Below are positions 889 through 63,310 of a stretch of DNA of 64,000 nucleotides, piece by piece. The stretch is from Tribonema minus (taxonomy: Eukaryota > Sar > Xanthophyceae > Tribonematales > Tribonemataceae). The notes under the pieces are model-generated. The model saw only the letters and a list, made by a program, of their open reading frames with translations. It searched no databases and was not told the origin of the DNA. A program made the translations under genes and the position numbers. Within the stretch, counting starts at the first letter, position 1, and the number at the start of each line of letters is the position of its first letter. The DNA lies in the NCBI GenBank assembly GCA_017506865.1, contig JAFCMP010000490.1, forward strand, positions 372,001 through 436,000, read 5' to 3'.

Positions 889-3800
889 CTGAGTTCGCTG
901 GACAGCTTGGCGTTCGTCTGGCTCAGCTCCACGAGCCGCTGTGCTGCCTCCCTGTCCTTGGCACGCACGCCCTGATTGGCCTGCAACAGTGCAGCATTGC
1001 TCAGCACATCAGTGCTCAGTAGACCAGCCCAATAATTTGTTGAACTGTCCTTGGCACGCACGCCCTGGTTGGCCTGCAACAGCGCAGCATTGCTCAGCAC
1101 ATCAGTGCTCAGCAGGCCAGCTCAAAATCATGTAAACTGTTTCTCAACTGTCCTTGGCGTGCACGCCCTGATTGGCCTGCAACAGCGCAGCATCTCTCAG
1201 CACGTTGCTGCTCGGTAGGCTAACCCTAAGCCCTAAGGTGGCCGATACATGGGGGCAGCGAGGCACACGGTACAGGCCTAACCCATCCTTGCCCTAATCC
1301 TAACCCTACCCCTATCGCTTGCGGACAGGGTAGGTGCTCAGCAGCAGGCCAGCTCAAATGAGCTCCGTGCCAGCAGCAGCGGCACATCACAAGACGCAAG
1401 AGATCCGGCGTCAGTGGGTGTAAAGCACGAAAAAAGGTTCTGCGTTGTCACGTTTTTTTTTCAATCGCAATAAAAAATATGCTTCATAATCTAAGCCCTT
1501 ATCATAGATTTTCCAATGTGGCTGAGTTGTGTCTCAGCAGCACGGCACCTACAGTACTTGATATATGCGTGTTCGCTACATAGAGCGTCTTCCGCCAGGA
1601 TCGAGTGTCATTTGAGTATTTTGGAGTTGAACTTGTTATCTTCACTTCACTGAATGGGAGTGTGCGCCAATTTGTCAGCATCGCAGCATGCCGAGGCCTT
1701 CTCGCAAGGACCATGGCAATACTCATACTTGCGAGTCTGATTCAACGAGTCTCAGGCACTGCGCAGCTGGTCCAGAGCCCTCAGCAGGTTGCGTCTGAGC
1801 ACTGCCACCGTTGCATGAACACCACAGTATGTGAAATTGTTTACGCACGTTCATGACATCACTCAAATATAAACAGGAGTTTCATCCAGCTTGTACATAC
1901 CTGGTCAAGAGCCCTCTGCAAGTCGGACAGCTCTCCGCGGAGCGCTGCCACCCTGGCATCTGAGGCCTCGTTGCCCCTCCTGCTCTCCTCTAGGGCAGCC
2001 TGCTCGGTCACAGTGCGCACATTGAGCAGTCAATGATAGGTAGGTAGGGTATGTGCACCTGAGATGAGCGCTGCCGCCCTGACATCTTATGGACATGAGC
2101 ACAGTCCATGGTGTGCAATTGAAGGTGGCAGTTGAAGTAGGCAGTTGGGCAAGCGTTAACATGACGCCGCGCTGCACCTTCTGTGCTCGTCTGGGCAGCC
2201 TGTTCATGAAGAATTTTATCATGATGGTAGACAGGTATGTGTAGTTGAAGTTACCTGTTGGCACGCAGGCAGGCAGGCTTGCTTGCGCATTGTACAGCAT
2301 GGTCTATTGAGCACAAGTGCGTGGATAATCAATTGCAAGGTAGGGCGCATTCGGGGACTGTACAGGGTGCAGCTCAATGCCAAGGACAATTCAGAATAAA
2401 AAACACTTGATGCCAGAAGAGAGAGAGTATCAGTCGGAGTTCGTCCTTGCCCCTCCCCAATCCTTGTCCTGACCCTTACCCCAATTCAAACCAACATTTT
2501 TGCAATGCCGTGGACAAAGGCACTGGGAGAAGACCTGCAAATGTTATACTTCGTACCTTAAGCCCTTAACCTAGATCTGATTGTGCATCCACGTGTTATC
2601 AACCAATCCCCAGTCCCAAGTAACGCCCATCCCAGCCTGACCCAAAATTAAACTGGTTTGTATTGTGTGCTCGCTCGCATGCAGCCGTGCCAGCTGCTCC
2701 CGCTGAAGCGCCCAATTGCGCTAACCCTAACCCTAACCCTAACCCTAACCTAACCGTAGCCCTGAGAGGCAAATCCCAGCCCTATCCCTGACTTTGCACC
2801 TATCCTGAACGCCACCCTGCCAGCTGCGCCTTCTGACCTTGTAGCCCTAGCCCTGACAAGAAAAATGACCATATTATGTTTCACCCTTACATCGGCAACA
2901 CCTGCAACCTAACCCTAACCCTAACCCTAACACCCTAAGCAACCCCCCTGCTGGCCAGACCACAACCTTGAACCTACGTAGCACCCAGAGCATGCCATCT
3001 CTTGCCTGCAGCCCAGCCAGCTGCTCCCTGGCCAAAGCGAGCTCCTCTGCGGCCGCATGCGCGCGTTGCTCACTCTCGCCGCGCAGCCGTTGTTCGTCAC
3101 ACGCAGCGCTGTCCGCCGCTGCCGCAGCCGCCTGCTGCCGCTGTGCCTGGCCACACCAAAGGGAGAGTTGTGAATTGAAGTATAACGGTATGTATATGAT
3201 GGCAATACTCAGTCTTGAAGTACTTTATGAAGTAGTTCTTGAAGTATGAGTGATGATGCACGTTCAGGTGAGACATGCTCGTTGCATGCGGCGCTCTCCG
3301 CCGCGGCCGCCGCCGCCGCCTGCTGCCGCTGTGCCTGGCACACCGAGGAAATACTATCATAATAAAAGTGTAATGGTACGAAGTATACGTTGACCAAACT
3401 AATTATACAGGTACTTCTGGCGATATGAGTTACGGTGCAAGGTGAGGTGACACGTGCTGGTCACACGCGGCGCCTCCGCCGCTGCAGCCGCCGCCTGCTG
3501 CCGCTGTGCCCGGCACACCAAGGAAAAGGAGTAGCATTTGAATTGAATCATAACGCTAGGGATATGATCTGCGCCGCGGCCGCCGCCGCGTGCTGTCGCT
3601 GTGCCTGGCACGCCAAGTATGTTAATTTGGTGTATAACAAAAGAACTAGCCGTGGGCTGGTCGACGGAATGCGATGCAAGGCGCACAGAATCGATGCTGC
3701 ATGAGCACTGTGGAGCATCAGCACACAAGTGCAACAGACAGCTGAGAAACTGACAGGTGTGGTGGGGGAAAACCATCCTCACGGGGAACGCATGGCCGCA

Positions 3801-6800
3801 ACCGCGCAATGGGTTGCCGCACTAAAAGCCCGGGTGGGTGGGAGGATTTGCAAATCAATCTCTGCCCGGGTTAGCAGCTGCAAGCCCCACGTGCCACCTT
3901 GGGGCCACGTTGGTCTGCTGATTGCTGCATGTCTGCCTCCGGCTGAGACTGTACTGCCTGTGACCTATACGCCCGAACCATCGCCTTCCCCCTCCTCTGC
4001 GCCCCCGGCTGGTTCCTGGTTTTTGGCTCCATTTTGTGCCAAAATTGCCGAAAACTTTGAGTATATGATGGTGATGCTCATTCTTGGTACTTCAAAAAGC
4101 ATAAACCTAAAGATCCAAGTAAAATTCTTGGAGTACTTCTTGCAATATGAGTGATGGTGCCAGTTGAGGTGAGGCCTGCTCGTTGCACACGGCGCTCCCC
4201 ACCGCTGCTGCTGCCACCGACCTCTGCCGCTGTGCCTGGCGCGCAAGGCACCTGTAATCTTACGTATATGATGATAGGTATATGATGGTGATAATTCGCA
4301 CGACTCTCAAGGCGACCGACAGTGTTGGAGGCAGTCTAGCCCTACGCGATGGGTATACTAGGGTTTGTCACGATGCTTTCAGGAGTAGCGTAGCCCCATT
4401 TGAAAGGTGAACTTCGTAGGATGAGTGTCGGATCCCTGTTGTTGTTTTCGTTTCGGTTGACAACATATATGAATCAATACTCCGAAGTACATGAATCTGC
4501 ATGACTGCCGGCCAGAGTGGAAGCCAGTGGGCGTTCGCGCATTACTGTGAATGGAAGCAGCGCAGGGTATTGACTCGAGGCATCGGCCAACGTCACGCAT
4601 TCGAAGTGCGCACCAATTTGCCCACCAACATCGCATACAAGCCACACGCGGCGCACTTGCGGGCGGCGACTTCATAGCAGCAACACATGCATACCTCCAG
4701 CACGATGTCGTGTTTTTCGGCCTCCAGCCGGCTCACCGCCTGCCGCAGGCCGTCCAGCTCTGAGCGCTGCTGCTGAGCTGTTGACACAGCATCCTCCTGC
4801 GCAACACCACATGGTGAGTCACCAGTCACAATTGAAGCTGAGTTTTGAGGTTGGGGTTAGGGTTGTTGCTGAGCTGTTGACGCAGCGTCCTCCTGCGCGC
4901 GACACCATGCGGTGAATATCCTGAGACGCTTTCAAGTTATCACTAGACGCGTGTGGACTCTGGTGGCAAGGTGGACATCTACCATCTGGGCTTTTTCACG
5001 CCTAAACGACATTATCAATACAACTACATCTCATGTTTGAGGTCAAGGCTTGGGGGTAGGGTAAGGGTTAGGGTTAGCTGCTGAGCCATTGACACAACGT
5101 CCTCCACAGTCGCAAGTTCAACCCCAAGTAGGTTTGGTGGTGGGGTGTTGGTGGTAGTGTGAATGGTTAGGGTTAGGCTCTTTGCGGTTGAGTTTCTCTG
5201 CAGGGTTAGGGTTAGGAAAGGGTGCTGCATTGAGTGCAGATGCTCAGAGTCACGGTTGCCAGTCAGATTCAAGGGTGGGCCCAGGCAATTGAGACATTGC
5301 TCAAATTGAGCAGTCTGTTTTTAAAATGCAGCAGTGCTCAATGATTTGGACAGCGCGCACCTGATTGCGCAGCGCTCTACAGTGCTGAGACTTGACAGTT
5401 GTTGCTTTTGTTTGTGCAGCAGTGCTCAACTCAACGTTCAGAACGCCAGCGCACCTGATTGCGCAGCGCCCTGTCGCGCTCCGCCTCTGCCGCTCTGCGC
5501 AGCCCCTGCTCTTCCTTAAGCTGCCTGTCGATGGACTGCAGCTGCTCGTGCGCTGACGCAAGGGCACGCGCATCCTCTCCTCCCCTGCGTATACACGAGT
5601 AAAGTTAAGGTCAAACTGAGCACGATTGAGAACAGTGTTGCTTGTTTGTTCTGGGCAGTTGTGGCGCGTCAGAGGACAAGAAGGACAACAGCCCCCCACT
5701 CACACAGTACTGATCTGGGCTGACCCTAGTCCTAACCCTAACCCTACGCTTGTGAGTATGTAAGCAAAGATTGAAACAGAAGGGGTGTGAATGGTGTACG
5801 CCAGTACATGCGCATCCTCTGCTCCCCTGTGTAGGCACGGGGAAAGCAGTGAAATCACCCTCTGTTTGAGCACACTGTTGTTTGTTGGCATTTGGCGGTT
5901 TGCACGCTTTAATTTTGCAAGAGGACAACAACCCCGCTTCATGCGGTGCTGATCATTTAGAATGAATCGCGCCGCAGACGAGGATCGATCACAACAGGGG
6001 TGCGGATGTGTTCTCCAGACTAGGGTTTAGGTTTAAGGTCTGGGTTGGCGGGTATAAGATAACGTTTACTGGGCGTCAGAGATGCTGGTCTAGGCTACAA
6101 GCAGATACCAAGCTCTCTTGGTGCCTTAATTTGTGCATACTGCGGCAGCATAACAGCAAGAAGTTCATTGGTACCCGAGCTGCATAGCCGTGGTGAAGTT
6201 CAAGCGAGAACATGTTTGCTGCGAAGTAGCACGCTGGTTGTGTGCGCCAGGGCTCAAACACATTGCCCTGACCCTACCCCCAAGCTGAACCCTGACGGCA
6301 ACCCTCAACCCCCCCGATTCTGACCCCAAGCCCCCCCACTGCATCTACTGAGAAGCGCTGAATTTGCAGAACGATGAGCTCCATAAGGTGCCATGCCATC
6401 ATCAGCAGAACACAAAACGTGCTGTTGTGATCCAATACATATGGTCAATGACAAGCTTCATGATGTGCTGAGCCATCAACTACTCTGTCGCAACCTGTTT
6501 GGAGTCAGGGGTGGGGTTGATGTGGTTGATGGGAAAAGCCGACAAAAAAAACACTCCCTCCCCACCACAACTAATAAAAATCACAAGTGCGGTGCGACAG
6601 CACACTGACGATGATGCGGTGGTGTACCCTGCCTTAGTTTCTCTTACATACAGAGGCTACAAGCAGTAGCTAACCCTAAACCCTAACCCTGAGTGTAGCG
6701 GAAGCGCGCTCATATACATGTACATGCGCCAGCTGACAGTATTACCGGTGCTACGACGAAAATGCACAGTTTGAGACAGCACATCACTGCACTTGAAGCT

Positions 6801-9800
6801 AAAGGGTGGCTCTTCCAGTATTAACTTCAATGCGAAAGTCAGCCGCCATGTGGAGGGCGCCGGCTGAGGGCTAGGTTAGTTTAGGGTTGAGTAGTAAAAC
6901 GGTGAGCATAGGGATAAGAGTCAGGGATAGGCCTAAATTTTGAGTGTAAGTAAACAGCATGCTGCCATACCTGCGACCTCATCTAAGGTAACACGCTCAG
7001 CGGCCTTTTTGCGGTTGAACTTCAAATGGTGACTTGAAGAACTTCAGATGGTGACTCACCTGGCTTCTTTGTCTCTGGCAGCATCTGCAGCCTCCTGTGA
7101 CAGTTTCTGCGCCAGCGCCTTCAGCTCCCTGATGCCGCCCCGCACCACACAGGAGGCGCACATAGTGCTAGTCAGAAACCTCTTTTTCAAAAATAGTCTG
7201 AAATATTGAACGGCTTCCTTGGAAGGAGTTGGAGCAGGGTTGAGGTAAGGGTAAGCTGATCTCGACAATCACATTTGAGACGCCTTGACTCGCGAATTTG
7301 CATGAGCTTACATAGGGTTAGGGTTGAGCCACCTTATCCCAACTACTCCAGGAAGGGGGGGGTCTAAGTAGTGCTCGCAAGTCATGATGACGAAGTACGC
7401 TCAGGCTGTGGTCTAGGTACATGCATGCATGCATGCGCTCAAACACTTGTAAAATCAAATGCGTTCAAATTATCCTCATGGCAAGTGCGCAAAGGTCACT
7501 TTGTGCGCAAAGGTCACTTTGGTGAAGCGCCAGACTCCACAATTACACCATGACCGTGCCTTTGAGCAAATTTGTGCTGCAGGATCTAAGCCAGCGTGCA
7601 GCAGCCGAAACTGCAGCCAGACATAGCATCAGACAAGTCTTCGAGCAAAACACCAGCAGGAAAGGCAATACAGCTTATGCAATGACACACGTCAAGCACA
7701 CAGCGGAAAAGGTACCTCTGCCACTCAATGAATAATTGTTAGGGGACTCTGCATTGCTGAGCGCTGCTGTTGCACTTCTGTGCATACCGGTAGGTAGCAC
7801 TGCACTCCATACATACATACCTGTTGGCGGCATTTGCTTTGCTGCTGAGCGCTGCCTTGAGCTCCTATGCATGCCGGTGCATAGCACAGCTCTCAATACA
7901 ACATACCTGTTGGCGGCATCTGCATCGCTGAGCGCTCGCTGCCTTTGAACTTCTGTGCATACCGGTAGGTAGCACTGCCCTCAATACCTACATGCCTGTT
8001 GGTGGCATCTGCATCGCTGAGCGCTCGCTGCCTTGAACTCTTGTGTATATGGGTAGGTAGCACTGCACTCAATACATACATTCATACCTGTTGGCAGCAT
8101 CTGCATCGCTGAGCGCTGCCTTGAAGTCGTGTAACTGCCCGTCGGACCGCTCCGCCTGTGCGAGGAACGCCGCTCGTTCCGCGGAAAAGCGCTGGGACTG
8201 TTCCTCCGCGGCCGTGCGCGCCACTGCCGACACAGCACGACACAAATAGTAATCGCGCATCAGATCTCAAGTGTTTTCAGCACAGTGGCTTTACCGCATG
8301 ACTTGTTTTTCTTTTGTGGCTTTGCAGCACCTGGCATCACGGTCATTCTTGTTGTTCTTGGTGTCTTTGTAGCACCTGCAATTACTGCTGTTTCAGCAGC
8401 TTTGAAGTCCACATGTTGAAGTTAGCGCCATGCGCTCAATCTAGGGATTACAAGCAGCTTCAACGAAAACCAATCGAGCACGTTGCCTGACGCTGCTGTT
8501 ATGCGATATGAATTCTGCCTGCGGAACTCACTGCAGGACAGACATGGACATGACATAAAGTGGCAGCAGTGCTCACCATGTGTACCCTGACAACCACTAT
8601 CATACATACCCTAGCAGCAGTGCTCACCGTAGGTACCCTGGCAGCAGTGCTCACCATACATGCATGCCCTGGCAGCAGTACTCGCGATACTGCCCCTCAG
8701 CAGGGCTGGCCTACATACCCTTACAGCAGTGCTCGCCATGCTTATCCTGCCAGCACCGCTCTCGTCATTGGTGTCCAGACACACTCACAAAGACACGCCT
8801 GGCAGGCACTGACTGCACAAATCAAGCTGCCCTTCAATGTCACCCTCATTTTCACCGTTAATGTCACCCTCATTTTCACCGTTGAGTGTACTTGCCATGG
8901 TGGGTATTCCCATCATGCTCATGGCGTTCCCGAAAGGCCAAGCTACCGCTTCACGCAATAATACACTTCATAAGAGCCAAACACTCTGATGCTCTAGCCG
9001 TAGCACAAACTGTGACCCCCGCCACCTCTACATCCTCCTGTCTCGCTCCGTAAAAAGGGATGCAGAGGGAGGTGCCAGGGGACAAGCACTAACCCTAGCC
9101 CTAGTTACCTAGTTAGCTGACCTGTCAGCGCCTCCGCAGCCAGGCGCGCCTGATGATCGCCCTCTCTGAGCCTGAGGAGAGCAGCATTAAGTCGAGTCAA
9201 TGAGTCAAGTCACAAGTCACTTGTCAACGCTGTCCACTTCCGCGGATGCACACGATACGAGAAGGCTTGGCAACTGCCATGTCGACTTCAAGTGCACCTG
9301 CAGCTTCGCCCCTAAGCCATCCCGGCCCTGGTCCCAGTCTGTGCCTGCACATCATGTCAATCACGCATCACACCTGCAGCATTGACCAACGAGTCAAGTG
9401 GCGAGTCACAAGTCAATGCTGTTCACTCCACACATGCGCACAGTACACGCGTGGCAATTCAGGGCAGCAGCAGGTCTTGATGACAAGATAACTTCAACTT
9501 GAACTTCAAGTGCCACACTCGCTCCCCCCCCCCCCCCCCTGATTCCAAACGCTGTGCCTGCGCCTCATGTCCAGATGCACAGAAGCTGCAAAAGATGCGG
9601 GCGTCAGACTCACTCTGCCTCAGCAACTCCAAGGTATGACACTCCCCACACTGGCAACTTCAAGGCCTCAGCGCCCTCAAGGCGTCATCGTACTACTCAC
9701 CTTGCTCCGTTGGCCCCATGACAACTCTAAGATGTCACACTCACTGCTCACACCCTGAGCTGTGCCAACTTCAAGTCATCACAACTTGCTGGCCTCAGCA

Positions 9801-12800
9801 AGTTCAAGTGCTCCCGCGGCCTTATCCGCCCTCGCTTATGCTACTACTCGCTTTGCTCCGTTGACCTCACCTCACCTCCAGGATGCCACTCTCACCACTC
9901 ACACACTGAACTTTGCCAACTTCAACTCATCATACTCACTTGGCCTCGGCCACTTCAAGTGCGCCCGCGGCCTTGCCCACCCTGGCCTTTAGGATTACTT
10001 GCTCTGCTCGCCGTTGGCCTCAGCAACTTCAAGATAACACACTCACTACTTGGGTTTTTGCATGGTTACTCCCTGAGCTCTGTAAACTTCAAGTTGTCAC
10101 CCTCACTTGGCCTCGGCAACTTCAAGTGCGCCAGCGGCCTTGTCCGCCCTGGCCTCAGCGCGCGCCAGGTCTCGTTTGAGCTTGTCCCTGGCTTCCACGG
10201 CAGCCTGCCCCTCTCTGCTGGTTACGCCCAGTTCCGCGTGGAGCGCTGCCATTGCCGCGTGCAACTCCGAGACCTGCAGCACGACCGGCGAATGATGATG
10301 CTTATTTGTTCATGTCGCAGTATACACTATCAGGTATATGTACAATATACACATATATACACATATGTATATTGTATACACACATGTCCCTGGCCTCCAC
10401 GACAGCCTGCCGCTCTCTGCTGGCTGCGCCCAGTTCTGCATGGAGCGCTGCCATCGCTGCGCGCAACTCCGAGACCTGCAGCGTAACCGGCGAATAATGA
10501 TGCGTATGTGATTGTGATGCATGGCAATGGCGTCAAAGTGACCTGAGAGATGTACTTCTATACTTCGAAGTATATGTATTCATGGATGAACGTAGTGGTA
10601 AGCGGGCGCTGGCGTGCGAGCTGTCAGGCTCTGACAGGGGGGTGAGTAATGGCTCGTGTGGAGGGCATGTATCGTAGGTATGTATGGCCGCACCCAGCTC
10701 CACGTGGAGCGCTGCCATGGCTGCATGCAACTCGGAGACCTGCAGTACGACCGGCACACACAATGGCACACGCGTTGGCGGCGTTGGCGTCGGCGTGACC
10801 TGAGAGATGATGTGGCTGGGCATACGGCGTGGGAGCTGACGGGCTTAGATAAGGTCGTCAGTAATGGTCGTGCGCCCAGCTGCGCGTGGAGCGCTCCCAT
10901 CGCCGCGTGCAACTCGGAAACCTGCAGCACGATCAGCGAGTGGTGATGCTCACTTGCTCATGTAGACTCATGGGGCATCAGCATTGGCGTAATCTGAGAG
11001 ATGATATACACTTAGAAGCAGAGATGCCCCGTACTGCCATCATCGTACCAGTCGCGCTTAGCGCGAAATTTTTTTTAACCGGTACCGGTACCAGTACTCA
11101 ATAACTGGTACCAGCAGCTACCCGTACCAGTTTACCTGGTGCGCTGGGACAACCGGTACCAGTATACTGGTGAAACCGGTAAAAACTGGTCTGAGCGGTT
11201 TTCACCTGTGGTACCAGTTTTTTACTAGTGATGCCAGGGCTTTTCTCATATGCATAGCGTACGTAGTATACCGTGCGATCAGTACGTGCAACTACAAAGG
11301 CTACAGGAATAATGTTTGTTAGGAGCTCGAGGTTTCTAGGTTGTGCTCTCGAGAGGATTCTAGGTTGTGCAGCCGAATGGACCCAAGTGCATAGTGCGCA
11401 CAGCTCAAAGCCTTGCCCACAGCATACTAGCGCAGTATTTGCTCCTGTAAGTGACACTCAAAGTGCACCGTCACGATGCAAAGGCAGTCAGCAACATGTG
11501 TGCAGCATGCAGCCAGCAAAAGGATGGGCAGCATGCTCATATATCATTCTGCCTGCTGCCACCTGTTTCGACTTTCGCTCTGCAATTGGCACCCTTGCAC
11601 TTGTGGATCAGCAAACATCATCTGTCATATGTGTAAATCAGGTTTTCATGTTTACGCAGCTGAAGCTTGAGCGTTGGCTGCGACAGCGCATCATTGCATT
11701 CCTCAAAATGAATGCATCGCGTCCCACGTCGGTTGATGGATGCTAATGCTTTACATCCAACCTGCTATCTCAGCCTGAAGAAGCTGCTTGTGCATTCCGC
11801 GACATTCAATAGTCGCGCATCCATCAATCGGAGACTGCCACCTGTGTTCGATTTTTGCGCCACATGGACCGCTTGCATGCCATCACTAGCCGAACCCATA
11901 TGTCATTAGCAGCATCAGTAGGTCGACTCACGACCATATCTGCCAGATACACCGTCCTTACACCTGTCGTGTCGGTGTCGTGGGTCTGTGCAGCGCTGAA
12001 CTAACTTCAAGGCACGAAAGAATAAAATCGCTGAAACGGTCTAACAATTGCATTTTAACTGGTGGCGCCGGTCATCAGCTACGGCATCGGTACGTGTTTA
12101 CGGGTTGCCTCACGCGGCCAGTTACCCGTGCCGGTTAGCGAGCGGCAACCAGTCACCGGTTAAAACTGGTACAAAAACTGGTACGGGCACCGGTGCTACC
12201 AGTTAACGGGGCATCTCTGCTTAAAAGTAACTTTGAGGTATGCATATTGTATACATACACGGAAGTAGTACGCGGCATTGGCGTGAGCTGACAGGCCTTG
12301 ACAGGGGGGTGACAAATGAGGGTGTATGGAGGGCAGGCATGTAGGTATGTATGGCCGTGCCCAGCTCCGCGTCGAGAGCTGCCATCGCCGCATACAACTC
12401 GGAGACCTGTGAAGCGCAACGGCATGAGTCATCGCTTGTGCACACGATGGCCTTGGCTTGAGTTGACAGACCGTACGAGGGGCCATTGGGGAGAGTAGAA
12501 GTTGTTTGCGTGCGTGCTGCTGCTGTCCAGTGTCTATGGCAAGAGAGTCGAGTGCATACGCTGCACAGTCCTTGACCTGCACATACTTAGAAATGGTGCT
12601 TGCTGCAAGCGGAGCGCTACCGTGGCTGCATGCAGCCTCATACGCCTCCACCTGCGCGCGCCGCAATTGAAAAGTTTGAACCACTATATGACAAAATAAT
12701 TTACACAGCTACTGTGTAGTGGATATGGCCATGACACTGGTGATGCTTACACTTTAACTTGAAGTCAACTAAACATCAGCTCACTCTGAGCCCGTTGCGG

Positions 12801-17429: not shown

Positions 17430-17838
17430 CCTGACCTGTGCTGAGCCAGCTCAAACCTCTATCCTCACTAGCTAACAACGTTAACCCACAAGTCGTCGAA
17501 AAAACCGTTTTACACATGAAACAGAATTTGAAGTGACGTCAGGTGAAGTTGGAAGGCAAGCAAAAGCCGAAGTGTAAGTGCTGATCAGAGGGATGGCGCC
17601 GCTTCGGAGTGCAGCAGCATCCTGGCACAGCCGGTGGTGCCAGGTGCTGCTCTTTGGTGTTCTGGCTCTGCTGCAAGGTATTTAAAAGAAGACGCCGCAC
17701 ACATCTCGTGTTTCGCCTAGTGTAGTGTAGCGCACTCATGTGTTTTGCTGCATGCCTCTGGTAATGCATTCAACATCGCCACTGCCAGCCTGCAATCTGC
17801 AAGCACTGCACTGACCCGTCCGCAGAGCACCATCAATT
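17430..17838. other. 409 bp divergent intergenic region
   Basis: The first ATG of the coiled-coil gene (minus) and of the acetyltransferase gene (plus) point away from each other across these 409 bp, so it should hold both promoters. I see no convincing TATA box and no exon-edge echo or TTAGGG tract here, in contrast to the introns. Confidence 0.6.
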
Positions 17839-27868: not shown

Positions 27869-27947
27869 CGTATGGACTTGTATTTATAAAGGCCCAAGGG
27901 AGGCTGGGTTGCCTATGCAATCGAAAAGCTTGCGTCAACGCAGCAGC

Positions 27948-33445: not shown

Positions 33446-33447
33446 TA

Positions 33448-35898: not shown

Positions 35899-35934
<36 letters not shown>

Positions 35935-38610: not shown

Positions 38611-38642
<32 letters not shown>

Positions 38643-43283: not shown

Positions 43284-43318
<35 letters not shown>

Positions 43319-49300: not shown

Positions 49301-52300
49301 TGTCGTCCTTAATCAGGCGGATGTACGCCGGCGGCAGCCCCCGAATGACGTAAAAAGTAGATTTTGTAATTATTGATACTTCCATAATCAACTGCAACTG
49401 GCCCGCATGCCCACAGCGAGTTGAACTTTCAATCCCCCATTTTTCTTCAAGCACGTATGCACCTGTACATGTCGTCCTTGGTCAGGCGGATGTACGCCGG
49501 CAGCAGCCTGTCGCGGCTGTCCGCGGCGCCGACGACGCGGCACACATTGTGCAGGTTGAGCGCTGTTGCCTTTCTGACCCGAAACACGGGGTCCTCGCCC
49601 AGCGACACCATGTCCGGCGTCACAAACTGCTTGCAGAGGTCCTGTGCAGGGGGGGGGGGGGGGGGGGGGGGTAGGTAGCGGTGAACTTCAACTGCAACTA
49701 TGCATGTTCTGTTTGTGGTCCAGGTTCGCTTGCCAAAAACTGGTTTGCGATGTTGAACTTCAACTGCAACTAGGCAAGCAAGGTTTGTTAGTCCAGGTTC
49801 AGTTGCCAAAAACTGGACCTGCGTAGGGGGGGTGGTAGGTAGCAGCGGCAAACTTCAACTGCAACTAGGAAGTACTGTTGGTTCGTCCAGAATCAGTTGC
49901 CAAAATTTGGTCCTGCGTAAAGGGGATGGTAGGTTGCGACGGCAAGCTTCAAATGCAAACCAGGCCTGCGGAGGGGGTTGGTAGGTAGGCAACGGTGAAC
50001 TTCAACTGCTTGTCCAGGATCACAGCTGCCAGCACCGCTAGCAGAGGTCCTGCGCAGGTATGTGGCAACGTAAACGGTACGCCTGGACATTTATCAGCGG
50101 TTGCTTCATGTTTCAACTTCAACTGCACTTGCTCAGACTGCTTGCACAGGTCCTGCGGAGGTAGCGGCAATGAAACAATAGGCCTTGATACGACATCAAC
50201 CAGCAGGTACCGCATTTTCCGGGCGCTGAAAACAGTCCCGGGCTGCTGCTCACAACTCGCAATGCTGCACTGGCCAACATATTCGTGCATACATACCCCA
50301 TCAGCTCAAACAACTTCAACCCCGCCCCAGCCGGTCAACACGCGACTTCTGCAGGGAGCAACGAAACACCAAATTGCAGTGTCTCCCGGCAAATGCACTT
50401 CTGCAACAAAGCGCTTCAATCAAATGCGTTTAATCTCGCTCATTGCAGCAGCTAACCAGGGCGGCAACGCGCGATTTCTGCATGGCGACAATGTGACGCT
50501 GCAAGTTTTGTGTGCTGTATTGTATATGCGTGCACGTGCTCAAGCCCACTGCCGTGTGCTAACCAGTGCACCCAACCACCGGAATAAACAACAGCCCCCC
50601 CCCCCCTCAGGTGCTGACAACATTTTCAGTAGCGCACTACGTCAACATGTTCATACTCAAACTCATACTTATACTCTGCATATGATCATATTCACGACAT
50701 GCACATATTATAAACATAGGTGTGGAGACGCTGCGACACTACGTCATCATGTTCAGAGTTACACTCAGACTCATACTCGTGAATAGAGCATGAAGAAGAC
50801 ACTGCGATGTGCACTCACGGGTCCTAGGACGTCGGCCAGGTCGTTGAGCAGCGTTGCGGCTGTCATACGCTGCAACAGCGCTCAACAGACGAAGCGACAG
50901 CCACCGCGTTTAGGGTTAGGGTTAGAAATGGGGGAGAGGCTTGCAGTCCTACAACAGCGTTCAGCAAGTTCGTTGAGCAATGTTGCGGCTGTCATACGCT
51001 GCGACAGCGCTCAACGGGGGGAGCAACAGCCACCGCATCTAGGGTTAGGGCTAGAAATGGGGGAGAGGTTGGCAGTCCTGTGCTACAGCAGCGTTCAGCA
51101 AGTTCGTTGAGCAGTGTTGTGGCTGCCATACGCTGCAACAGCGCTCAAAGAGGGGAGCAACAGCCACTGCGTCTAGGGTTAGGGCTAGAAATGGGGGAGA
51201 GGTTGGCAGTCCTGTGCTACAGCAGCATTCAGCAAGCGGAGCAGCAGCAAGCGCGCCTAAGATGTGGCGCATGTTACAGTACATGCCGATGCAAAGATGC
51301 GCATTTCAGAGGGCTACTCGCTAAGGTGACGTGAATCTCACAACTCAGGACAGTTCAGGATGAGCATTTCAGAGGACTACACCGCGAAGGTGGCGGGACT
51401 ATACGCGAAGGGGATGTGGATCTCACAGCACATGACAATACAAGAATGTGCGATCAAGAGGCCTGCATGCAACTTTATGGAGCACATGGCCCTCAGCAAG
51501 AATAAAAATGTTTGTGGCATATGTATGAGGCTGGCTGTCCCACACAGCACATGTGTGAGGACGTGTGGATGGACGTGGCATGTATGTGTATGTGCGCTCA
51601 GAGAGGGGCGATGTGCATATCACAATAAGCCGAGACTAGTCCTCTGGCCAAACACATGACGGCTCGCATACACAGCACCCGCTCGCGTGCCCGCACGCAG
51701 TGTCAACACATGTTGGCGCATCACAACAGCCGCACACAAACGCTCGGCAGCAACGCTCGGCATTAACACTGAGCAGCAACGCTCAGTGCACAGCAGCGCT
51801 CACCAACACCTCGTTGGAATCGTCACAACAACGCTCAGCTCAGCAGCGCGCAAAGCAGCAACGCTCAGCGCAAAGCAGCAGCGCTCACCAGCTCCTCATT
51901 GGAGTCGTTGTGCGCCAGCAAAACGACAGTAGCAACAACGCTCGGCAGCTGTGCAAAGCAGCAGTGCTCAACACATGGCAGCGCTCACCAGCTCCTCGTT
52001 GGAGTCGTCGTGCGCCAGCTGCAGCACGATGGTGAGCACGTACTGGCCCAGATCGCCGGGCCGCATGAGCGCTGCCACACCCCTTAGCGCCTCCCCTGCT
52101 GACTGCCGCACCTCCACCTTGGAGTCCCCCAGCAGGCGGCTCAGGACTGGTAGAATGGTCTGCACGGCGGTCAGTGTAGGTATGTATATAGGCATGCTGT
52201 GTCAGGCAGGTAAGTCTATGTAGCAGCAGTCTAGGGTATGAGGCCATGTCTGCGACAACCTGCAAAGGCAACCGGCGCATATGTTGTTCGTTTAGTACGC

Positions 52301-55300
52301 AGAGTGAGTACGCTCTGTGTGCTGAGTACCAGATCCACCTTGGAGTCTCCCAGCAGGCGGCTCAGGACTGGCAGGATGGTCTGCGCATGAAATCAGGGTA
52401 GGTACGTATCTACACGTGCGGTGTCAGGCAGGTGGGTCGATGTAGCAGCAGTTGATGGTAATATGCCATGTCTGCTGCAGCCTGCGAAGGCGACTGGTGC
52501 ATATGCAGTTCATATAGTACGCAGAGTGAGAGCACGCTGTGTGCTGAATGCCTTGGAGTCTCCCAGCAGGCGGCTCAGTACGGGCAGGAAGGTCTGCACG
52601 GCAGCCAGGGTAGGTACGTATGGTATGGTATGTTGTGTAGGTGTGCAGTGTGAATCACATGGGTCAGTGTCGCAGAAGACTGTCGTACCATGCCTTGTCT
52701 TGTACAGCCTGCAAAGTGTACACTTGATGTACTGAAAGCCAAATATTGCATTCGTGCTGAACGGTCTGATGTGGCAGATCCTGTGCACTTCGATGGAGCT
52801 TTGAGTCCCCCAGCACACGGCTCAGGACTGGCAGGATGGTCTGCATGGCGGCCAGGGTAGGTAGGTTTATAGGCGTGCAGTGTCAGACACGTGTGACCCA
52901 GTCAATGCAGCGGTGGTACTTCTGCGCCATGACTGCTACGGGCCCCTGCGAAGGCGACCAGTGCGTATGCTGTTCGTAGAGTACACAGCGAGTACACTTG
53001 ATGTACTGTGTGCCCATTATTGTATTCGTGGTGACCGGTCTGATGTGGCAGATCCTGTGCAACAATGATTGAGACGGCATCCCTGCGCCCGCTCGATTGT
53101 GGTGCCAGGCAGGTGCATCAATGCAGCGTTGGTAGGTACTTGTGCGCAATCACCATTACAGGCCTGCAACAGCAACCTGTTTGTATAGTACGCAGACTGA
53201 GTACGCTCTGCGTGCTGAACGCCAGGTGTTGTCTTGAAAGTTGAATGCCACACACACACACAAACACACACACACACAAACACACACACACAAACACACA
53301 CACATTCCGCCTCCAACCTCAGGCACGCTTTGCACTGTTGAAGTTGAAGTTGTGCACCTGCAGCTAACAGCCAGTACCTGAGCTGTCTGACGGTCACACA
53401 CAATGCATGCACCACTAGTGTATGTATACCGTGGCCATTGCGCTATCTTCTGGAGTGTGCATGGAAACCCCAAGACAAGCACCTGCTACCCCTCCCTGCA
53501 AATCCCACCCTCCCACTTCGTCAGTTGTATACTTCTATTCTAGCACATATTTCCAGCTATTGTAAGCTGGTGCAGCCACTCATGGCTGGACCTCACGCCA
53601 GTGGCCACTTTGGAAGTGACACTGTCAATGAAGGCGGCATGCAGTTGAAGTGACTGCCGTGCACAGCAGTGCTCATGAGGTGGTGCAAGCCTCATGGCTT
53701 GACCTTACGCCAGTGACCACTTGGGAAATGACACTGCCAATGAAGGCAGACATGCACTTGAAGTATGCTGTGCACAGCAGTGCTGAGCCACCGCGCCACA
53801 CGTCTACGGCGCATCAAGTTGACACTGCATACACGACTTGAGGAATGGTATGCACCGTCAACTTCTGTTGCTATGCGCACGAATTTTTTTTTTTTGCTGC
53901 ACCCTAGGCGGCGACGCCTATGCAGCGATATGCCTCTGCCCACCTACATTCTCACCCCCTTCCAATGTGTGAGCGCCGCAGCCCCGCTGAGGGTGATCAC
54001 CCACGCTGTCATGTCAATGTTGTACGCCGTGTTGCACTGGCCACGGCGCCTCAACAGGGCAGGCCGTGAGAAATGTGCAACGTGTGTGCGGGATACATGC
54101 ACAGCTTTGCTGAGTAACACGTACACGATATGATACCTTGATCTCTACATCATCTGATGGCAGAGACCGCTGCATGTACGTACATGCATACATATGTACA
54201 CACGCACATGAGTACTCACCTCAATGATGAGCCTGTAACCCCTCCCGCCCTGCGCGTGCGCGGGCGCCGTGAACGTTCACACATACATACATACATTTAT
54301 GTACGCACGCACATATGTACTCACCTCAATGATGAGTCTGTAACCCCCCCCGCTCTGCGCATGCGCGGGCGCCGTGGGGGATCCAGGGGACCCCGCCCCC
54401 CCGCCCCCTACCCCCCCCGCCGCTGCTGCTGCGCCGCCCGCCCCCATGCACACGCGCGCTATGGGCTCCATCTGTTCCGCCAGCACCTGCCGCACTACAT
54501 ACTCCTCGTCCATGCTCAGAGCTTCAAAGAGGGGGACGATGCTGCGCACTGCGGCCAGGAATGGGTGTTGGGGAGTTGGGGGGGGGGGATGCAGATGAGA
54601 TGTGGCGGGGGGGCGTGTGTCGTGATGATGGTCCACCTATGTGGTATGTGAGTGCGCGGCGATGCTGACGCGATTAAAAATGATGCGGCGTTGCGTCGCA
54701 CCACGTCCCGCAGGCCTCTTCACCTGCAGATCTCCTCATCATGGTTGTGCGCGCGGCGGGCGCAGGTGTGTGCGGATGCTCAGCCGGTGTGGTGACAAAA
54801 GGGCCTCGTACAAGAAGCGCGGTGTCGCGCGCATCATCAGGCGCGTGTGCAGGCTCTGTGCCTCCTTTGGGTTGAGGCAATTTAGGGTTGAGGCTAGGTG
54901 AGGAGATAGCGGACCGCAGACAATGCCGCGTGGTGCAGACAGCTTTGAGTGCGGGGGGCAGGGGGATAGGGGGGTGGGGGTAGGGGTACTACAAACTTGC
55001 CTCAGCACGTGCGGTCCGACCATGAGCACTGCTGCCTGGAAGCGCAGCAGTAGACTGCTTCACACTTAGATGGGAGATAAATTGACGCATTCCAATTGCG
55101 GCCTTGTGAACGCCTCTCACTTAAGAGTGCTGGCCAATGCTCCGTGCGATCTGAGAGGTGTGCATGTGCCAAGTGGCTTTGCTGTACATGACACAAGGGA
55201 GCAGGCCAGCAGCCTACATAGTGCTCTCACAATGGCCTGCAATCTTTGTGCGATCGAATGCTTGCGCGGTCATTCGGCGTGTACCGATGGCCATTACTTG

Positions 55301-57424: not shown

Positions 57425-60400
57425 TCAGTCTTCGTTGTATGAGACCCTGCGGGGCGATTTGCGTGGCGAACGGCCGTTGAGCGCTGCTGCCGGCGCCGCC
57501 GCCGCCGCCGCCGATGACGATGCGCGCGGCGACCGCCGCGGCTTGAACGGGTGGCGCACGCGCCGCAGCAGCGCCTTGATGTCGTCGTTGGGGTAGAGGA
57601 CAAAGAGCTGAAGGGCGACGGAGGCGTCCAGCGCAGTTTGGACAGCTGCGCCGTAAAAGAAGACCATGGGGACCCCCTTGGCCACAAAGTAGGCCACCTG
57701 AGAGGGGGGGGGGGGGGGGGGGGGGGCAGGTAGGTAGATGTGCGTGAGTCCCCAGCAACGCAGGCTGGTGGCCGTCGGTGTGTGCGTCCAGGCACTGTCG
57801 ATACAACGCATCTCGGTGCCTGTGTTGTATTGTCGGACAACACCTGAGCGCACAGTTGGAACAGAGGCAGTCCTTCATTCATTGTGACTGCCCTTCGGGG
57901 TCCACGCGCGAGCTTACGGTGTTGAGACAAGAATGCTGGCGACAGTGATCGCAGGAACACCCCTCACCTGGTGATCTCCATGTCAGCACGCAGTGACAGC
58001 GCAGGGCGACCATAGCTGTGCCAATTTGTATGTTGATGTGGGCTACGATGTGGGTGCATGCAATGTCATTGCATCAGTTGTTGCTTGTGCGCGAATGATC
58101 ATTCACAACAGCTACGAATTTGAGTGCATGCGATGTCATTGCATCAGTTGTTGCTTGTGCGCAAATGATCACTCACAAAAAGGCACACGCTGCCTGCCGC
58201 AAATCTTGCAGCCACGTCATGTCATTGCCGTCACCTCAAGCCTTCACGCGGAACCTGGGCTCACAGCGCGCCGTGCAAGCGTGCAGGCACATAACATCTG
58301 GCAGATGCCACAATGGCTGATTAACCCCAAATCGTAGGTGTAGCACTGTTGAGTGAACTTCGTCACAATGGCTGATAACCTCAAATCGCTTGTGTAGCAC
58401 TGTTGAGTGAACTTCAATTATCTGGTGGTGTGGCGACGACCTAATGTACTGGGCCACGTCTCTTTGCTGCCACTTGGCAGGTTGTCAGTGCAGTACATCC
58501 GCCCATATACAGAGTCCACAACTTTGTAAAGTATTGGACTGTTAGTGGTGAGAGGGTGCTTCAAAAAGTGTGATGAGTAGATCCCTCTGGCGGTTCAGAT
58601 GCTCTGCATGTGCGCATCAGAGCTGGTTGGCTGCCGCTCACTCAGGCAGACATTGATGCCGCACGCAGCCGGCCCACAAGCCTCGTCGAGCCCAACCCAG
58701 TGGACAGGCCTCCCTAGTACAATTTGCGTCAGCCGCCCCCACCAACGCCCGAAATGGTGCACGAGAGCACGATGTACTATTACACTCACGTGCCGGATAT
58801 CGCGATTGCGGGCGGCGGACCAGAAGTGAGTCACATACAAGGTGTGGTGTATCTGGGGTGGATGCCAAGGAGGGCCACTCAGCGGCATGCTGTTGCTCAA
58901 AGCGTGTATTGTCGCGCTTCACTGACGTGGCAAGGCGCATCGCGTCCGCTGAAGTCGACTTCAAAGCACTCCATGCTGTGGTCAGAGTGGCCCCAATTGG
59001 CATCTACTTACTTCAGATACACCAACTTGTATGTAACTCACTTCTGGTCCGCTGCCCGCAATCGGCACGTGAGTGTGGTAGAACATGGTGCTCTCGTGCA
59101 CCATTTCCGGCGTTGGTGGAGGCGGCTGACGCAGATGGTACTCAGGAAGCCTGTCAACAGGGTCGGGCTCGACGAGACTTGTGGGCAGGTTGTTGGCAGC
59201 ATAAATGTCTACCTCAGTGAGCGGCATCCAGTCGGTTCTGGTCCGCACGTGCAGGAGCATCTGTTCCGCCAGGGGGGGATTGGGACGGATGTACTGCATG
59301 GACAACGTGCCAGCTGCAGGAAAGAGACGTGGCCAGTACATTAGGGCGTGGCGCACCATCAGGTGTTTGAAGTTCACTCAACAGTGCCACACAAGCGACT
59401 TGAGGTTGTTCAGCCATTTTGGCATCTGACGGATATGTGCCCGCCGTGCTCTTGCACTGAGTTCATTGTTAGGGTTAGGATGAGGGTTAGGGTTAGGGTA
59501 TGTCAGGGTTAGGGTTAGACGAACCATAGTCCTAACCCCGCGCCTGGTAGATGCGCCCCAGTCTCACCTTGAGGAAGTCTCCTCCTAATCACCTGCATAC
59601 CATGAACATGCTGAGACCCGTCGTGCTCTTGTGCGCTGAATTCACACTAACCCTAACCCTCGCCGTGCGTTTGGTAGATGCCCCCTAGTCTCACCTTTAA
59701 GAAGTCCCCCCCCAGCCATCCACACGCTATGGTATGCCGAGACTCGCTCTTGTGCATGGAGTTCATGGTTGGGGTTAGGTTAGGGTTTACACTAGGGTTA
59801 TGTTCAGGGTTAAGGTATGATAGGGTTAGGATTATACTAACCCTGACCCTAAGCCCCCGCCTGGTAGATGCCCCCCAATCTCACCTTGAGGAAGTCCCCC
59901 CCTAGCCATCCGCACACCATGAATATGCTGAGACCCGCCGTGCTCTTGTGCATGAAGTTGCGTGTCAGCTGCGGCAGTCCCATGACGCTCTCAAAGGACA
60001 CCGCCGCTGCTCCCAGGCCCTCCACGTACCACTGCGACAAGACAGCGCGCATTGTCAAGACAAATCAGGGGAGGACACGTGCTTGTTTTATTGTTGTGCT
60101 GATGGTTGCTGCCAGAATCCATGCAAGCACAGATCAATCGTACCATGATTTGGCGTATTGGCTTGTAAGGACACCCAAGCCCTCCACGTACCACTGCAAC
60201 AGGGCAATCAATAATGTGATGCCATTGTGATGACACGCACTGTATTGCCTGTGACTTGAGGGCCATATGCTGACGTTCTGACCACAGAACATCAACAGCA
60301 CAGTTAAATACACTTTGAAGTAATGGTTTACGCGGATGTTGCTGGGGGCCATGCAACCGCATGATATTTCTAGTAAGGGAGCATGTTCTGATGTAAAGGT

Positions 60401-63310
60401 GTTCAAAGACACGGCTGCCACCCCCCTGGAGGCCCCTCCTTGTAGCATTGTAACACATTAGCGCGCATTTCAGAAAAACGTGAAGAGGGCAAAATGCCCG
60501 GCACATGCTTCCATGCTTGTTTACGACATCAGAGAAATAGCTGATGTTGCTTGCTGGGCGGCATGTCAGCACAAAATGTGATTAGCACAGCATGTCATGG
60601 TGTACTGGCTCTAAAAAGAAACATTGCTGCAGTTTCCAGGCCACCCACTTACCACTGCAACAGCACAGTCGCGTGCCACAACTCATTCACTCACTCACTC
60701 AATGACTCACTCTGACTGCTGCCTCATCTCAAACCAGCGCCGCCACGCTCGCAAACAGCGCCGTGGCGCCCAAGTACAAAAAACACTAACAATCACTCAA
60801 TCACTGACTCATGCAAACACCTGTCAACTTACCTCAAAGCGGTACAGAAGCGGTGAGACCAGCGCCACCGCGCTCGCGAATAACGCCGTAGCACCGACGT
60901 ACATCATCAAAACCTGTCACTCACTCACTCACTCACTCACTCACTCACTCACTCATTCACTCACTCAATGAGTAATCTGAACAACCGCTGCCTCACCTCA
61001 AAGCGGTACAGAACTGACGACACCAACGCCACCACGCTCGCGAATAGTGCCGTGGCGCCCAAGTACAAGGCAAAACTGTCCCACGCCCAGAAGTCGCCTA
61101 CGGGCGACAGCGCCAGTTGACGCCCTTCGCGCTTGGCCAGCGCCCACTTGCTGCCCGCCAGCGCCTGCAGAAGGGCCAGCTGCATGCCTGCGGCGTAGCA
61201 GCGGCGGTGCGGTGCGTTGGGGCGAGAAGCGTTTGACAGGCAATACTTCGAAGTAGGTTATGAAGTTGGCTTTTGTATGCGCACTGGCTGCCCGCCAGCG
61301 CCTGCAGAAGGGCTAACTGCATGCCTGCGGCGCAGCATTTGAAAGGCGCACAGCGCGCGTGCACGCATGTATGTGGACGGTGAGTGCGGTGATAGCAGTA
61401 CTTCAAGTTCATGAAGTGCGCTGTTGTCTGCGCACTTGCTGCCCGCCAGCGCCTGCAGTAGGGCCAGTTGCATGCCTGCGGCGTAGCAGCGGCGGTGCGG
61501 TGCGTTGGGGCGAGAGACGTTCGACAGGCGCACGACGCGCGTAAGGCAGGACTGTGGGCGGTGAGTGCAGTGAGAGCAGTGCTTCAGGTCTGATAGACTA
61601 TGTTTTGACGTGCCCGCTTGCTGCCCGCTGGCACCTGCAGCAGCGCTCAGCTGCCCACCACATGCAGCAGCGCTCAGCTGCAGTGTGAGTACAGCAGTGC
61701 TCAGGTGATTCACCGCCTGCACCAGCGCTCAGCTGCTCTATAGCGAAGAATCGAAAGATTGCAGAGCTCTAGGTGACAAGGTGTGGTTAGCCGCAGATGC
61801 CTTCCACCAATAACTGTGGTCGTCGCTGCTGCGGAAATTATACCTGCAGCAATGCTTAGCTAACGCTGCCTGCAGCAGCGCTAGCGCTCAGCCGGCTGCA
61901 TGCCAATGGTGACAAGAGGCGAGTTGGGACAGTATTGAGTTTATAACAATGCATGCCCGTGCGACCCGCTTTGCGAGCGTCCAACAATCAGCAAGCGGTG
62001 AGAGGTGTCGAGGCGGAGGAGCACCCAATACATACATACATACATACACACAGATCTGATATGTGTACCTATGGATTGGGATGCACCCTCTTTACAGCTG
62101 CCACAAAGAGCAAGGTACTGCAGAGTATGTGCATGTGGCGGTGCAGCTTGCGGCACGGGGGCTGGCGAGGCCTGCCTATGAGCAGAGGCCTACTGTGCTG
62201 CGCAAGTAGCGTGTCGCTGAAGTATGTATATACATACAGGATAGGTAGACGCATTGTCAATGTATGCACAGCAAGCCCACCTATGAGCAGCAGGCTCTGC
62301 ACGAGCATCGTATTGTCGAAGCGCTTGCGGAACCAGAACGCCACGCGAAGCGTGTTGGCCACCAGTATCACCAGCGACACATTGGGGCTGAAACCCTGCG
62401 CCAGTGGGGCAAAGCACAAGACACGTGTAGAAATAGTCGAGTTGTGAATGTTTGAGAAGGGGCTGAAGCCCTGCAGACTGGAGGCAAGACATTACGCCGC
62501 ACACAGGCAGCCGGTCAATGACACTGGCGCCGTATGCGTTGTTGGCGATGCTCGTTGCTGCAAGATGCGAGGGTCGAAGCTCGGTGAGGCTACAGTGACA
62601 TGAAGTGATACAGATGAGTGTGCCGTGCGGTGGGCGCCACCATTCTAGGTGCGCTCGTGGCGAAACAGACAGTGGCTGCATGTGAGCTGCTGCTGGTGTT
62701 TGGGTATGCAGACACATTGTAGCGCAGCGGCGTGCGGGCCGCCAATGTGAGCAGTAGTGGTGGTGCGCTTGCGGCACAATTTCTGCTGATCTCATCAGCC
62801 GCGCGTCGTACTGATCTGTAATGCCCTTGTTGGTGAACATGGGGGCGCACACTATTCCCAGCGTCGACTCGACATGGATGTTGTTGACTCAGCGGCTGTG
62901 CCAGCCATGCCAAACTGTCTGGGTCATTGAAATGCTGCATCTATGCAGGCTTCGCATAGCACTGACCACAATGGTCAATTAGTCTCGTGTACAACATTTG
63001 TAAGGAGCGAGCAGTACGTATTGGTGCGAATGCCGAAGCCGTGCAAGTAAATACATGCTCGAAGAATCAAATTCTGTCTGACCAAATCTGACGATGCCAG
63101 CGAGGCTTTCGTCGAAGGTGCCAAGCCTTGACGACAGTGTAGTCTAAGCAGAAATAACTAAAAATCGATGTTTTCAGAACGTGCCATACTTGCACTCACA
63201 TCCGAGGACTTGCCGCTCCGCAAACTCAGCAGCTGAGGTATATACGGGATGATGGGCCCCGCTGCAAACTGGAGTCTCACGAGAGCATCCACGACCGTCG
63301 CGCCACGCAT
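57425..63310 (-). CDS. SLC66A2: PQ-loop membrane protein, SLC66A2/PQLC1-like, complete, five exons
   Basis: Multi-pass membrane protein of the PQ-loop family. The animal homologue sits in endosomal/trans-Golgi membranes, and related fungal proteins are linked to phospholipid asymmetry; the substrate is unsettled. Exons: 63200-63310, 62281-62395, 60997-61187, 59885-60031, 57425-57697; phases agree, 278 residues, close to the usual length. PQ motif 1 is Ile-Pro-Tyr-Ile-Pro-Gln (residues 21-26) and PQ motif 2 is Met-Gly-Leu-Pro-Gln-Leu (156-161). Strong family stretches are Ser-Leu-Val-Ile-Leu-Val-Ala-Asn (exon 2), Trp-Tyr-Val-Glu-Gly-Leu-Gly and Lys-Ser-Thr-Ala-Gly-Leu-Ser (exon 4). Exon 5 holds the last hydrophobic segments and a basic Ala/Ser-rich cytosolic tail. 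The ATG at 63310 is the first in frame. The exon 5 acceptor follows a run of about 20 Cs. Confidence 0.93.
59465..59860 (-). repeat. donor-side echoes of SLC66A2 exon 4 with TTAGGG/CCCTAA tracts (two copies)
   Basis: Copies of the exon 4 3' end and donor (plus strand CTGGTAGATGCCCCCCAATC, then TCACCTTGAGGAAGTCCCCC) occur at about 59665-59765 and 59545-59640. Each is about 95 bp long and bounded by telomere-like tracts (59467-59515, 59650-59660, 59772-59790, 59838-59852) in both orientations. All copies keep GTGAGA donors. The second PQ motif region is not included, so only the 3' two thirds of the exon are echoed. Confidence 0.92.
60170..60670 (-). repeat. acceptor-side echoes of SLC66A2 exon 4
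   Basis: The acceptor and first codons (plus strand CCCTCCACGTACCACTGCGACA) recur at about 60180-60202 as CCCTCCACGTACCACTGCAACA. They recur again, decayed, at about 60642-60664 (CCACCCACTTACCACTGCAACA). Confidence 0.8.
60715..60960 (-). repeat. donor-side echoes of SLC66A2 exon 3 and a TCAC microsatellite
   Basis: Two copies of the exon 3 3' end (plus strand CTCAAAGCGGTACAGAACTG and CACCAACGCCACCACGCTCGCGAATA) lie at about 60833-60900 and, decayed, 60727-60780. A (CACT)n microsatellite (about 60917-60966) borders the units. In the two copies the donor is present as GTAAGT-like (TTACCTC) and GATGAG-like forms. Confidence 0.88.
61262..61510 (-). repeat. acceptor-side echoes of SLC66A2 exon 3 (two copies, about 150 bp unit)
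   Basis: Acceptor plus about 13 codons (plus strand GCTGCCCGCCAGCGCCTGCA, GAAGGGCCAGCTGCATGCCT, GCGGCGTAGCAGCGGCGGTG) recur at about 61287-61335 and 61438-61505. The spacers share GAGA(A/G)(G/A)CGTT(C/T)GACAGGC and ACTTC(G/A)AGT words. Confidence 0.9.
61756..61836 (+). mobile_element. Ty3/gypsy-like integrase fragment, family copy 3
   Basis: Plus-strand match to the fragments at 39795-39900 and 47706-47807 (both minus): GCAGAGCTCTAGGTGACAAG followed by GTGTGGTTAGCC. Located in intron 2 of the SLC66A2-like gene. Confidence 0.45.

Follow-up and report, generated by a model that had tools for sequence, protein, structure and literature searches.

Long introns are mostly attributed to transposons. 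Gao and Lynch are said to have described, in 2009, internal gene duplication, with intragenic duplications that involve both exon and intron, and Zhuo et al. reportedly linked human introns to tandem arrays in a 2007 study that, by its title, concerns intron origin. The closest described events are local duplications that touch splice sites. A tandem duplication across an intron-exon boundary is described for the potato RdRp gene in the consulted part of one report (PMC4974935), and the consulted part of a review deals with introns gained when exonic AGGT segments are duplicated in tandem (PMC3443670). Tandem arrays of 90-bp exons are described for Tetrahymena in the portion consulted of a third source (PMC6564038).

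The stretch of DNA analysed here, referred to as the window, comprises 64,000 nucleotides of Tribonema minus (C490:372001-436000) from an assembly of 158 Mb in 554 contigs. The product of a gene on another contig (L021) agrees at 100% with a EukProt transcriptome protein, at 71% with Heterococcus, at 56% with Tribonema and at 54% with Chrysoparadoxa; on this one gene and further Heterococcus hits, the source would most likely be a yellow-green stramenopile alga (xanthophyte) close to Heterococcus. Many of its exons are accompanied by direct partial copies of their own edges, for which we use the term echo: acceptor echoes carry the acceptor and the exon start, donor echoes the exon end and the donor.

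Exons of the window and their echoes

Three minus-strand genes are considered. One, starting at about 56.3 kb and ending below 41 kb, encodes protein phosphatase 4 regulatory subunit 1 (PPP4R1), as judged by the names of its listed relatives. A second, at 0.9-15.5 kb, has the predicted translation of a coiled-coil protein, and the third, near 59-63 kb, contributes two exons to the test set. Gene models are weak at about 16-38 kb, and the echo results pertain to the window outside this region. Exons were called with a home-made gene finder and curated by reading frame and splice sites, with one exon start moved from 47389 to 47395. The PPP4R1 exon ends were additionally placed by alignment of nine homologous proteins. 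These alignments run consecutively from exon to exon, and several share the same exon ends (51989 in four homologs, 48487 in six). One Heterococcus gene model of a PPP4R1 homolog contains an extra stretch, which does not resemble an echo. Echoes were searched for with probes spanning the exon edges, compared within 2.5 kb, and a nearest echo was required to overlap the intron by at least 8 nt. The exons and arrays are as follows, with single positions denoting echo splice points.

60997..61187, minus strand, exon: acceptor echoes upstream at about 61279-61654, donor echoes downstream at about 60681-60903 (self-comparison, edge probes)
59885..60031, minus strand, exon: donor echoes at about 59476-59763; weaker acceptor echoes with splice points 60193 and 60655
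54325..54541, minus strand, PPP4R1 exon: single donor echo 54178-54271, period 105 (homologs, edge probes)
52334..53014, minus strand, acceptor-echo array of exon 52159-51989: splice points 52371, 52618, 52843
51989..52159, minus strand, PPP4R1 exon (TILPVLSRLL...NEEL): placed by frame and splice sites, with the alignments of four of the nine homologs stopping precisely at 51989
51747..51919, minus strand, donor-echo array of exon 52159-51989: splice points 51889, 51804
50819..50869, minus strand, PPP4R1 exon of 51 nt: acceptor echoes 51003 and 51137, 134-bp unit (homologs, edge probes)
49463..49641, minus strand, PPP4R1 exon: two weak acceptor echoes 50049 and 50152 (homologs, edge probes)
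48949..49339, minus strand, donor-echo array of exon 49641-49463: splice points 49294, 49164, 48981
48487..48625, minus strand, PPP4R1 exon without echoes (homologs, edge probes)
47148..47395, minus strand, PPP4R1 exon: acceptor-echo homology at about 47437-48066
47044-47170, minus strand, 42-bp donor repeat of exon 47148..47395: found with shorter probes, missed by longer ones
46405..46561, minus strand, PPP4R1 exon (homologs)
45748..46252, minus strand, donor-echo array of exon 46561-46405, five copies: splice points 46193, 46028, 45916, 45820, 45748
45315..45452, minus strand, PPP4R1 exon with a GC donor (GCAAGT): acceptor echo 45539-45590
43175..43566, minus strand, exon: donor echoes 43004, 42839
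41441..41554, minus strand, PPP4R1 exon: acceptor echoes 41721, 41903, 42244; donor echoes 41377, 41313 (homologs, edge probes)
15344..15471, minus strand, exon: acceptor echoes 15613, 15763, 15904, with AG lost in all three
12962..13131, minus strand, exon: acceptor echoes 13280, 13514; one donor echo 12839
10107..10273, minus strand, exon of the putative coiled-coil gene: acceptor echoes 10475, 10739, 10921; donor echoes 9940, 9789
8088..8223, minus strand, exon: donor echoes 8000, 7907, 7824, 88-bp unit
5455..5584, minus strand, exon: one echo per edge (5826, 5361)
4695..4796, minus strand, exon: one acceptor echo (4894)
3006..3134, minus strand, exon with a GC donor (GCAAGA): acceptor echoes 3309, 3502, 3591, 4223; weak donor echo 2679
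889..1001, minus strand, exon with uncertain 5' end (no AG): upstream repeats 1104, 1197; donor echoes 803, 702, 606

Self-comparison of the window yields 213 pairs of direct repeats, of which 136 lie less than 3 kb apart. Edge probes detect 62 echoes at 29 of 48 edges (15 acceptors and 14 donors) on 19 of 24 exons, ten of which are positive on both sides. The positive acceptor of exon 1001-889 lacks an AG at its assigned start, and the count excluding that edge is 28/47. Positive edges carry one to five copies, with six at one donor when shorter probes are used, and five exons are without echo by edge probes (48625-48487, 12651-12514, 9165-9122, 7128-7060 and 1999-1901). Exon-edge echoes, as proposed in the sequence-only reading, are thereby confirmed. 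The same reading placed them in all three minus-strand genes, which holds for PPP4R1 and the putative coiled-coil gene, and for the 59-63 kb gene in both of the two exons examined.

Several observations lie apart from these gene models. At 23414-24064 the window holds a 330-bp tandem repeat with copies 95% identical. A repeat of equal period and identity occurs at locus L027 (3914-4565), and a translated frame near-identical to that of the window repeat lies near 5628 in L014, so that the three probably represent a dispersed repeat family. Telomere-like TTAGGG words are frequent in the window (12 per 10 kb), in L011 (26) and in L026 (16), and are absent from L009, L010, L033 and L034.

Echoes in myosin and kinesin loci and their excess at exon borders

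For comparison we took the myosin loci L029-L035 and the kinesin loci L036-L037, nine of the many such loci listed in the genome, with exons placed by Pfam hits. Together with the window they form a set of ten loci with 141 edges and 72 exons. Wrong-side echo hits, three at donors and one at an acceptor, were read as mis-called exon ends, and the corresponding ends were reset (one donor in L034, two donors in L035, one acceptor in L036); one L032 exon end was also moved to 1052.

Across the ten loci, 52/141 edges and 37/72 exons are positive, with 98 echoes in total. Acceptor echoes lie upstream and donor echoes downstream in 58/58 cases in the window before any end correction, and in 98/98 cases over the ten loci after the four resets outside the window. 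All 98 are direct copies that lie within 2.5 kb of their source and span an existing splice site, while no inverted copy was found at the 140 edges examined. Nearest-copy spacing is mostly 90-230 bp, and echoes make up 9-35% of intron length in seven echo-bearing genes. The earlier propositions that arrays on opposite sides copy different halves of the exon, that each unit arose by local direct duplication with one of its breakpoints within the exon, and that both edges of one exon can seed arrays (15/72 exons) all stand.

Positive edges are distributed unevenly among loci: 29/48 in the window, 6/14 in L032, 2/10 in L033, 4/10 in L034, 5/10 in L035, 5/11 in L036 and 1/7 in L037, as opposed to 0/11 in L029, 0/10 in L030 and 0/10 in L031 under the final criteria (a weak 30-bit hit appeared once in L031 and did not recur). 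The three empty loci differ from the rest with a Fisher P of 8e-8, calculated over edges that are not independent within one gene. The notion of a genome in which many exons seed arrays is thus refined: echoes occur in six of the nine myosin and kinesin loci and are absent from three, and the genome is mixed. L029, L030 and L031 contain nearly no local repeats whatever (0-1 pairs each). Since similar pairs agree, with L030/L031 empty and L033/L034 rich, the tendency to form echoes looks like a property of the locus. CpG observed/expected does not cleanly split echo-rich from echo-free loci, at 0.96-1.06 in echo-rich myosins, 0.79-0.84 in empty ones and 0.78 in the echo-rich window.

L033 and L034 are two myosin paralogs on one contig, and self-comparison places their arrays at the same donors. 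The exon 2 array has four copies in both, the outer ones very decayed; the last-exon array has five copies in L033 and one in L034, and the exon-3 array one and two, respectively. One L034 exon-3 echo retains synonymous states that its exon has since lost, and it is 88% identical to the L033 edge, whereas the two exon edges are 79% identical to each other, which suggests expansion and contraction within the arrays.

In a rotation test on nine genes, two of them in the window, local repeats of the correct direction span 39/122 edges, where 19.4 would be expected, and 39 is reached in 0/2000 rotations; echo hits had guided the resetting of three of the 122 ends (in L034 and L035), a slight bias towards this result. 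The sequence-only reading would have been contradicted by partial copies equally common away from exon edges, and the edges instead stand two-fold above rotated positions. Single-gene P values are 0.037 for PPP4R1, 0.002 for the coiled-coil gene, 0.057 for L032, 0.66 for L033, 0.024 for L034 and 0.026 for L035, with three genes empty. Repeats internal to introns are nevertheless common, spanning 52/300 random intron points in the window. In twenty 10-kb loci that surround kinase hits or adjoin the window, where ab initio exons are unreliable, local repeats span 33/219 edges, 11/118 exon middles and 399/5700 random intron points.

The kinase searches also brought up loci of other kinds. L013 and L014 contain single-exon kinases and long open frames (in L013 one with a DUF5832 and one with a formin FH2 domain), which may be virus-derived inserts; a two-frame Pfam scan of L013 found nothing. 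L015 displays a 74% GC stretch with long reading frames around its kinase, unlike the other loci compared, and may be foreign DNA or a contaminant. On contigs C144, C223 and C278, and likewise on C90 and C179, kinase hits share identical or near-identical scores and frame lengths, which suggests duplicated regions or separately assembled haplotypes, which would be useful for comparing echo arrays between alleles.

The ratio of echo coverage to other repeat coverage in introns is 1.8 for PPP4R1, 2.5 for the coiled-coil gene, 8.7 for L032, 4.9 for L033, 10 for L034 (computed with the uncorrected exon end), 4.4 for L036 and 0.55 for L037, where other repeats exceed echoes. In L035, too, echoes fall short of other repeats, on a cruder measure and with an incomplete exon set. 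Repeats occupy 28-54% of the intron in the genes measured. The exon arm of the nearest echo is short, with a median of 47.5 nt (quartiles 37 and 67) against an exon median of 178 nt. None of 52 nearest echoes exceeds 70% of the available range, compared with 25-29% in simulations put through the identical search pipeline, and none is a whole-exon copy with both splice sites, as would be required of tandem exon duplication or mutually exclusive exons. One L032 echo (1119-1259), which overlaps the intron by less than 8 nt and stands outside the 52, has an exon arm of about 140 nt. Young and old echoes have arms of similar length (Spearman 0.03 for arm length and age, P 0.85). A gradual removal of long arms is thereby disfavoured, whereas selection acting as soon as a copy arises is possible.

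These data bear on uniform neutral tandem duplication without edge preference, in which the constrained partner would keep exon halves recognisable and short starting introns would force duplications across an edge. Under this model, introns of 80-150 bp that have grown recently reach mean simulated ratios of 1.5-7.5, and the neutral decay of the echoes (see below), the commonness of intron-internal repeats and the ratio of L037 agree with it. However, slow growth from the same introns yields 0.4-0.6, and starting introns of 300-700 bp yield means of 0.26-0.97, with single replicates from 300-bp introns reaching 2.5. In growth models that reach about 700 bp, repeats come to make up 83% of the intron, well above the observed share. 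As the rotation excess and the shortness of the exon arms also oppose it, we regard uniform duplication as unlikely.

Decay of echoes and fate of their splice sites

Echo-exon mismatch amounts to 0.089, 0.080 and 0.182 at codon positions 1, 2 and 3 (100 of 101 echoes, exon-only probes). Positions 1 and 2 differ about half as much as position 3, which would be expected if the echo mutates freely (about 0.085) and the exon changes almost only at position 3. Mismatch in the aligned intron half, in which neither copy is constrained, averages 0.176 in 42 window echoes, about twice 0.085, and the pooled values are 0.146 for acceptors and 0.189 for donors; the exon/intron divergence ratio, taken over aligned stretches only, is 0.58. 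GT is retained in 47/57 donor echoes, against 0.79 for dinucleotides of the exon part (P 0.63), and AG in 37/44 acceptor echoes, against 0.75 (P 0.17). Echo spacing modulo 3 is 34/32/32 of 98, with no frame bias. Codon pattern, loss of splice dinucleotides and spacing alike look neutral. Exon parts seemed at first to be shielded well beyond what neutral decay would allow, a view largely abandoned because simulation gave similar patterns.

The structure of the units allows a second alternative to be weighed, namely copy-paste repair of intron breaks from a nearby exon edge, or gene conversion between exon and echo, with spacers that are unrelated rather than diverged. In nine echoes the exon part is at least 91% identical to its source, in some cases 97-100%, while intron-side identity is at most 0.60, the level of unrelated sequence. 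Mean intron identity at an exon identity of at least 0.9 is 0.747, somewhat lower than the simulated 0.81-0.83, and homology about as long as the spacing is found in 10/43 young local repeats. Yet the share of such exon-alike, intron-unlike echoes (0.20) is similar to that from neutral tandem simulation (0.11-0.20). The aligned length has a median of 0.92 of the period, a figure raised by multi-copy arrays, and several arrays repeat the whole unit. Copying by repair or conversion is judged rather improbable.

Selection might instead keep echoes as spare or alternative splice sites or as decoys, roles that the sequence-only reading had entertained. Many echo sites are indeed intact, as it had claimed: 83/101 score above the 10th percentile of real splice sites, and 46/101 equal or exceed the score of their own real site. 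The splice dinucleotides are, however, kept no better than the exon part, codon pattern and spacing are neutral, and no echo-coded peptide was noticed in the nine PPP4R1 homologs, as judged on alignment tables rather than residue by residue. A splicing role is thus not borne out, the echoes resemble neutral debris, and we consider their maintenance by selection very unlikely.

An assembly artefact, to which error-prone tandem arrays are open, is hardly to be expected with most copies differing mutually by 5-30% and copy numbers differing between paralogs. Introners, intron-creating mobile elements carrying splice sites, would likewise repeat splice sites in the introns of many genes, but are least credible of all given that each echo matches its own exon and that similar introns dispersed over genes were not found (for the one block searched, 3.7 kb of PPP4R1, the rest of the genome gave only three matches, each of 31-40 nt).

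Proposed border duplication and its relation to known systems

Taken together, we consider it probable that introns are lengthened by recurrent local duplication with a preference for exon borders, while splicing can still pair the outermost sites. Repeated short duplications would each cross one exon border and arise there more often than inside introns. A duplication across a donor would leave the original exon and donor in place and add a unit of exon end, donor and intron start to the intron; one across an acceptor would add the mirror image upstream. Each event would yield a longer intron, the copy would then decay neutrally, and arrays would grow and shrink through further duplication. 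The earlier suggestion of intron growth fits this course. As the mRNA can stay unchanged, a duplication event can be tolerated. Exon definition may provide the reason: an echo is half an exon with one splice site, and exon-wise pairing would still choose the outermost pair. The lack of whole exons among the 52 nearest echoes fits such splicing, because a full copy could be spliced in. The splicing machinery appears, from the sequence, to ignore the extra sites.

The excess at borders is probably mutational. Candidate causes are breaks at sites of transcription or splicing, the edges of nucleosomes, and slippage in the C-rich tracts seen ahead of some acceptors. Several observations count against border-biased duplication: the ratio of 0.55 in L037 and the similar tendency of L035 on its cruder measure, the three echo-free loci, the simulated recent growth from 80-150 bp introns without edge preference, the exon-alike, intron-unlike echoes, and the exon arm of about 140 nt in L032. 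More tentatively, it is possible that borders are the very targets of the duplication process, that it always extends the same short way into the exon, at donors and acceptors alike, and that introns keep growing and filling with half-exons that are intact yet ignored, which would attest to exon definition.

If true, border-targeted duplication would constitute a natural genome-scale test of exon definition. Since echoes carry intact donors and acceptors beside the real ones, they offer a ready-made experiment on how the spliceosome chooses between near-identical sites. An echo that keeps synonymous states lost by its exon, as in the one paralog pair compared, implies that a gene may contain its own outgroup. 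In the seven echo-bearing genes measured, much of the intron stems from the neighbouring exons themselves.

In the literature searched, with subscription journals mostly outside its scope and hence as weak evidence of absence, we found no report of half-exon arrays seeded at both edges of many exons. Unlike internal gene duplication as attributed to Gao and Lynch, no nearest echo at the loci studied copies a whole exon. The work of Zhuo et al., compared by title only, resembles the echoes in linking tandem arrays to introns. As far as the consulted part of the source goes, Tetrahymena shares with the echoes an intragenic tandem expansion in a protist, but there whole exons of one gene class are repeated, in contrast to decaying half-exons (PMC6564038). 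Intron gain of the AGGT type, as presented in the consulted part of the review, also copies exon sequence and splice signals by tandem duplication; there, however, it is an exonic segment that is doubled, with the new intron located between the two copies, whereas an echo unit spans exon and intron across an existing splice site (PMC3443670). The potato RdRp gene, within the consulted part of its report, displays the same local tandem duplication of the 3' part of an intron with the 5' part of the next exon, yet as one event in one gene that created a new intron, while a gene with echoes records many events, at donors as well as at acceptors, that lengthen existing introns (PMC4974935). Duplication across an exon border is thus a known type of event, and its scale and geometry here are unusual.
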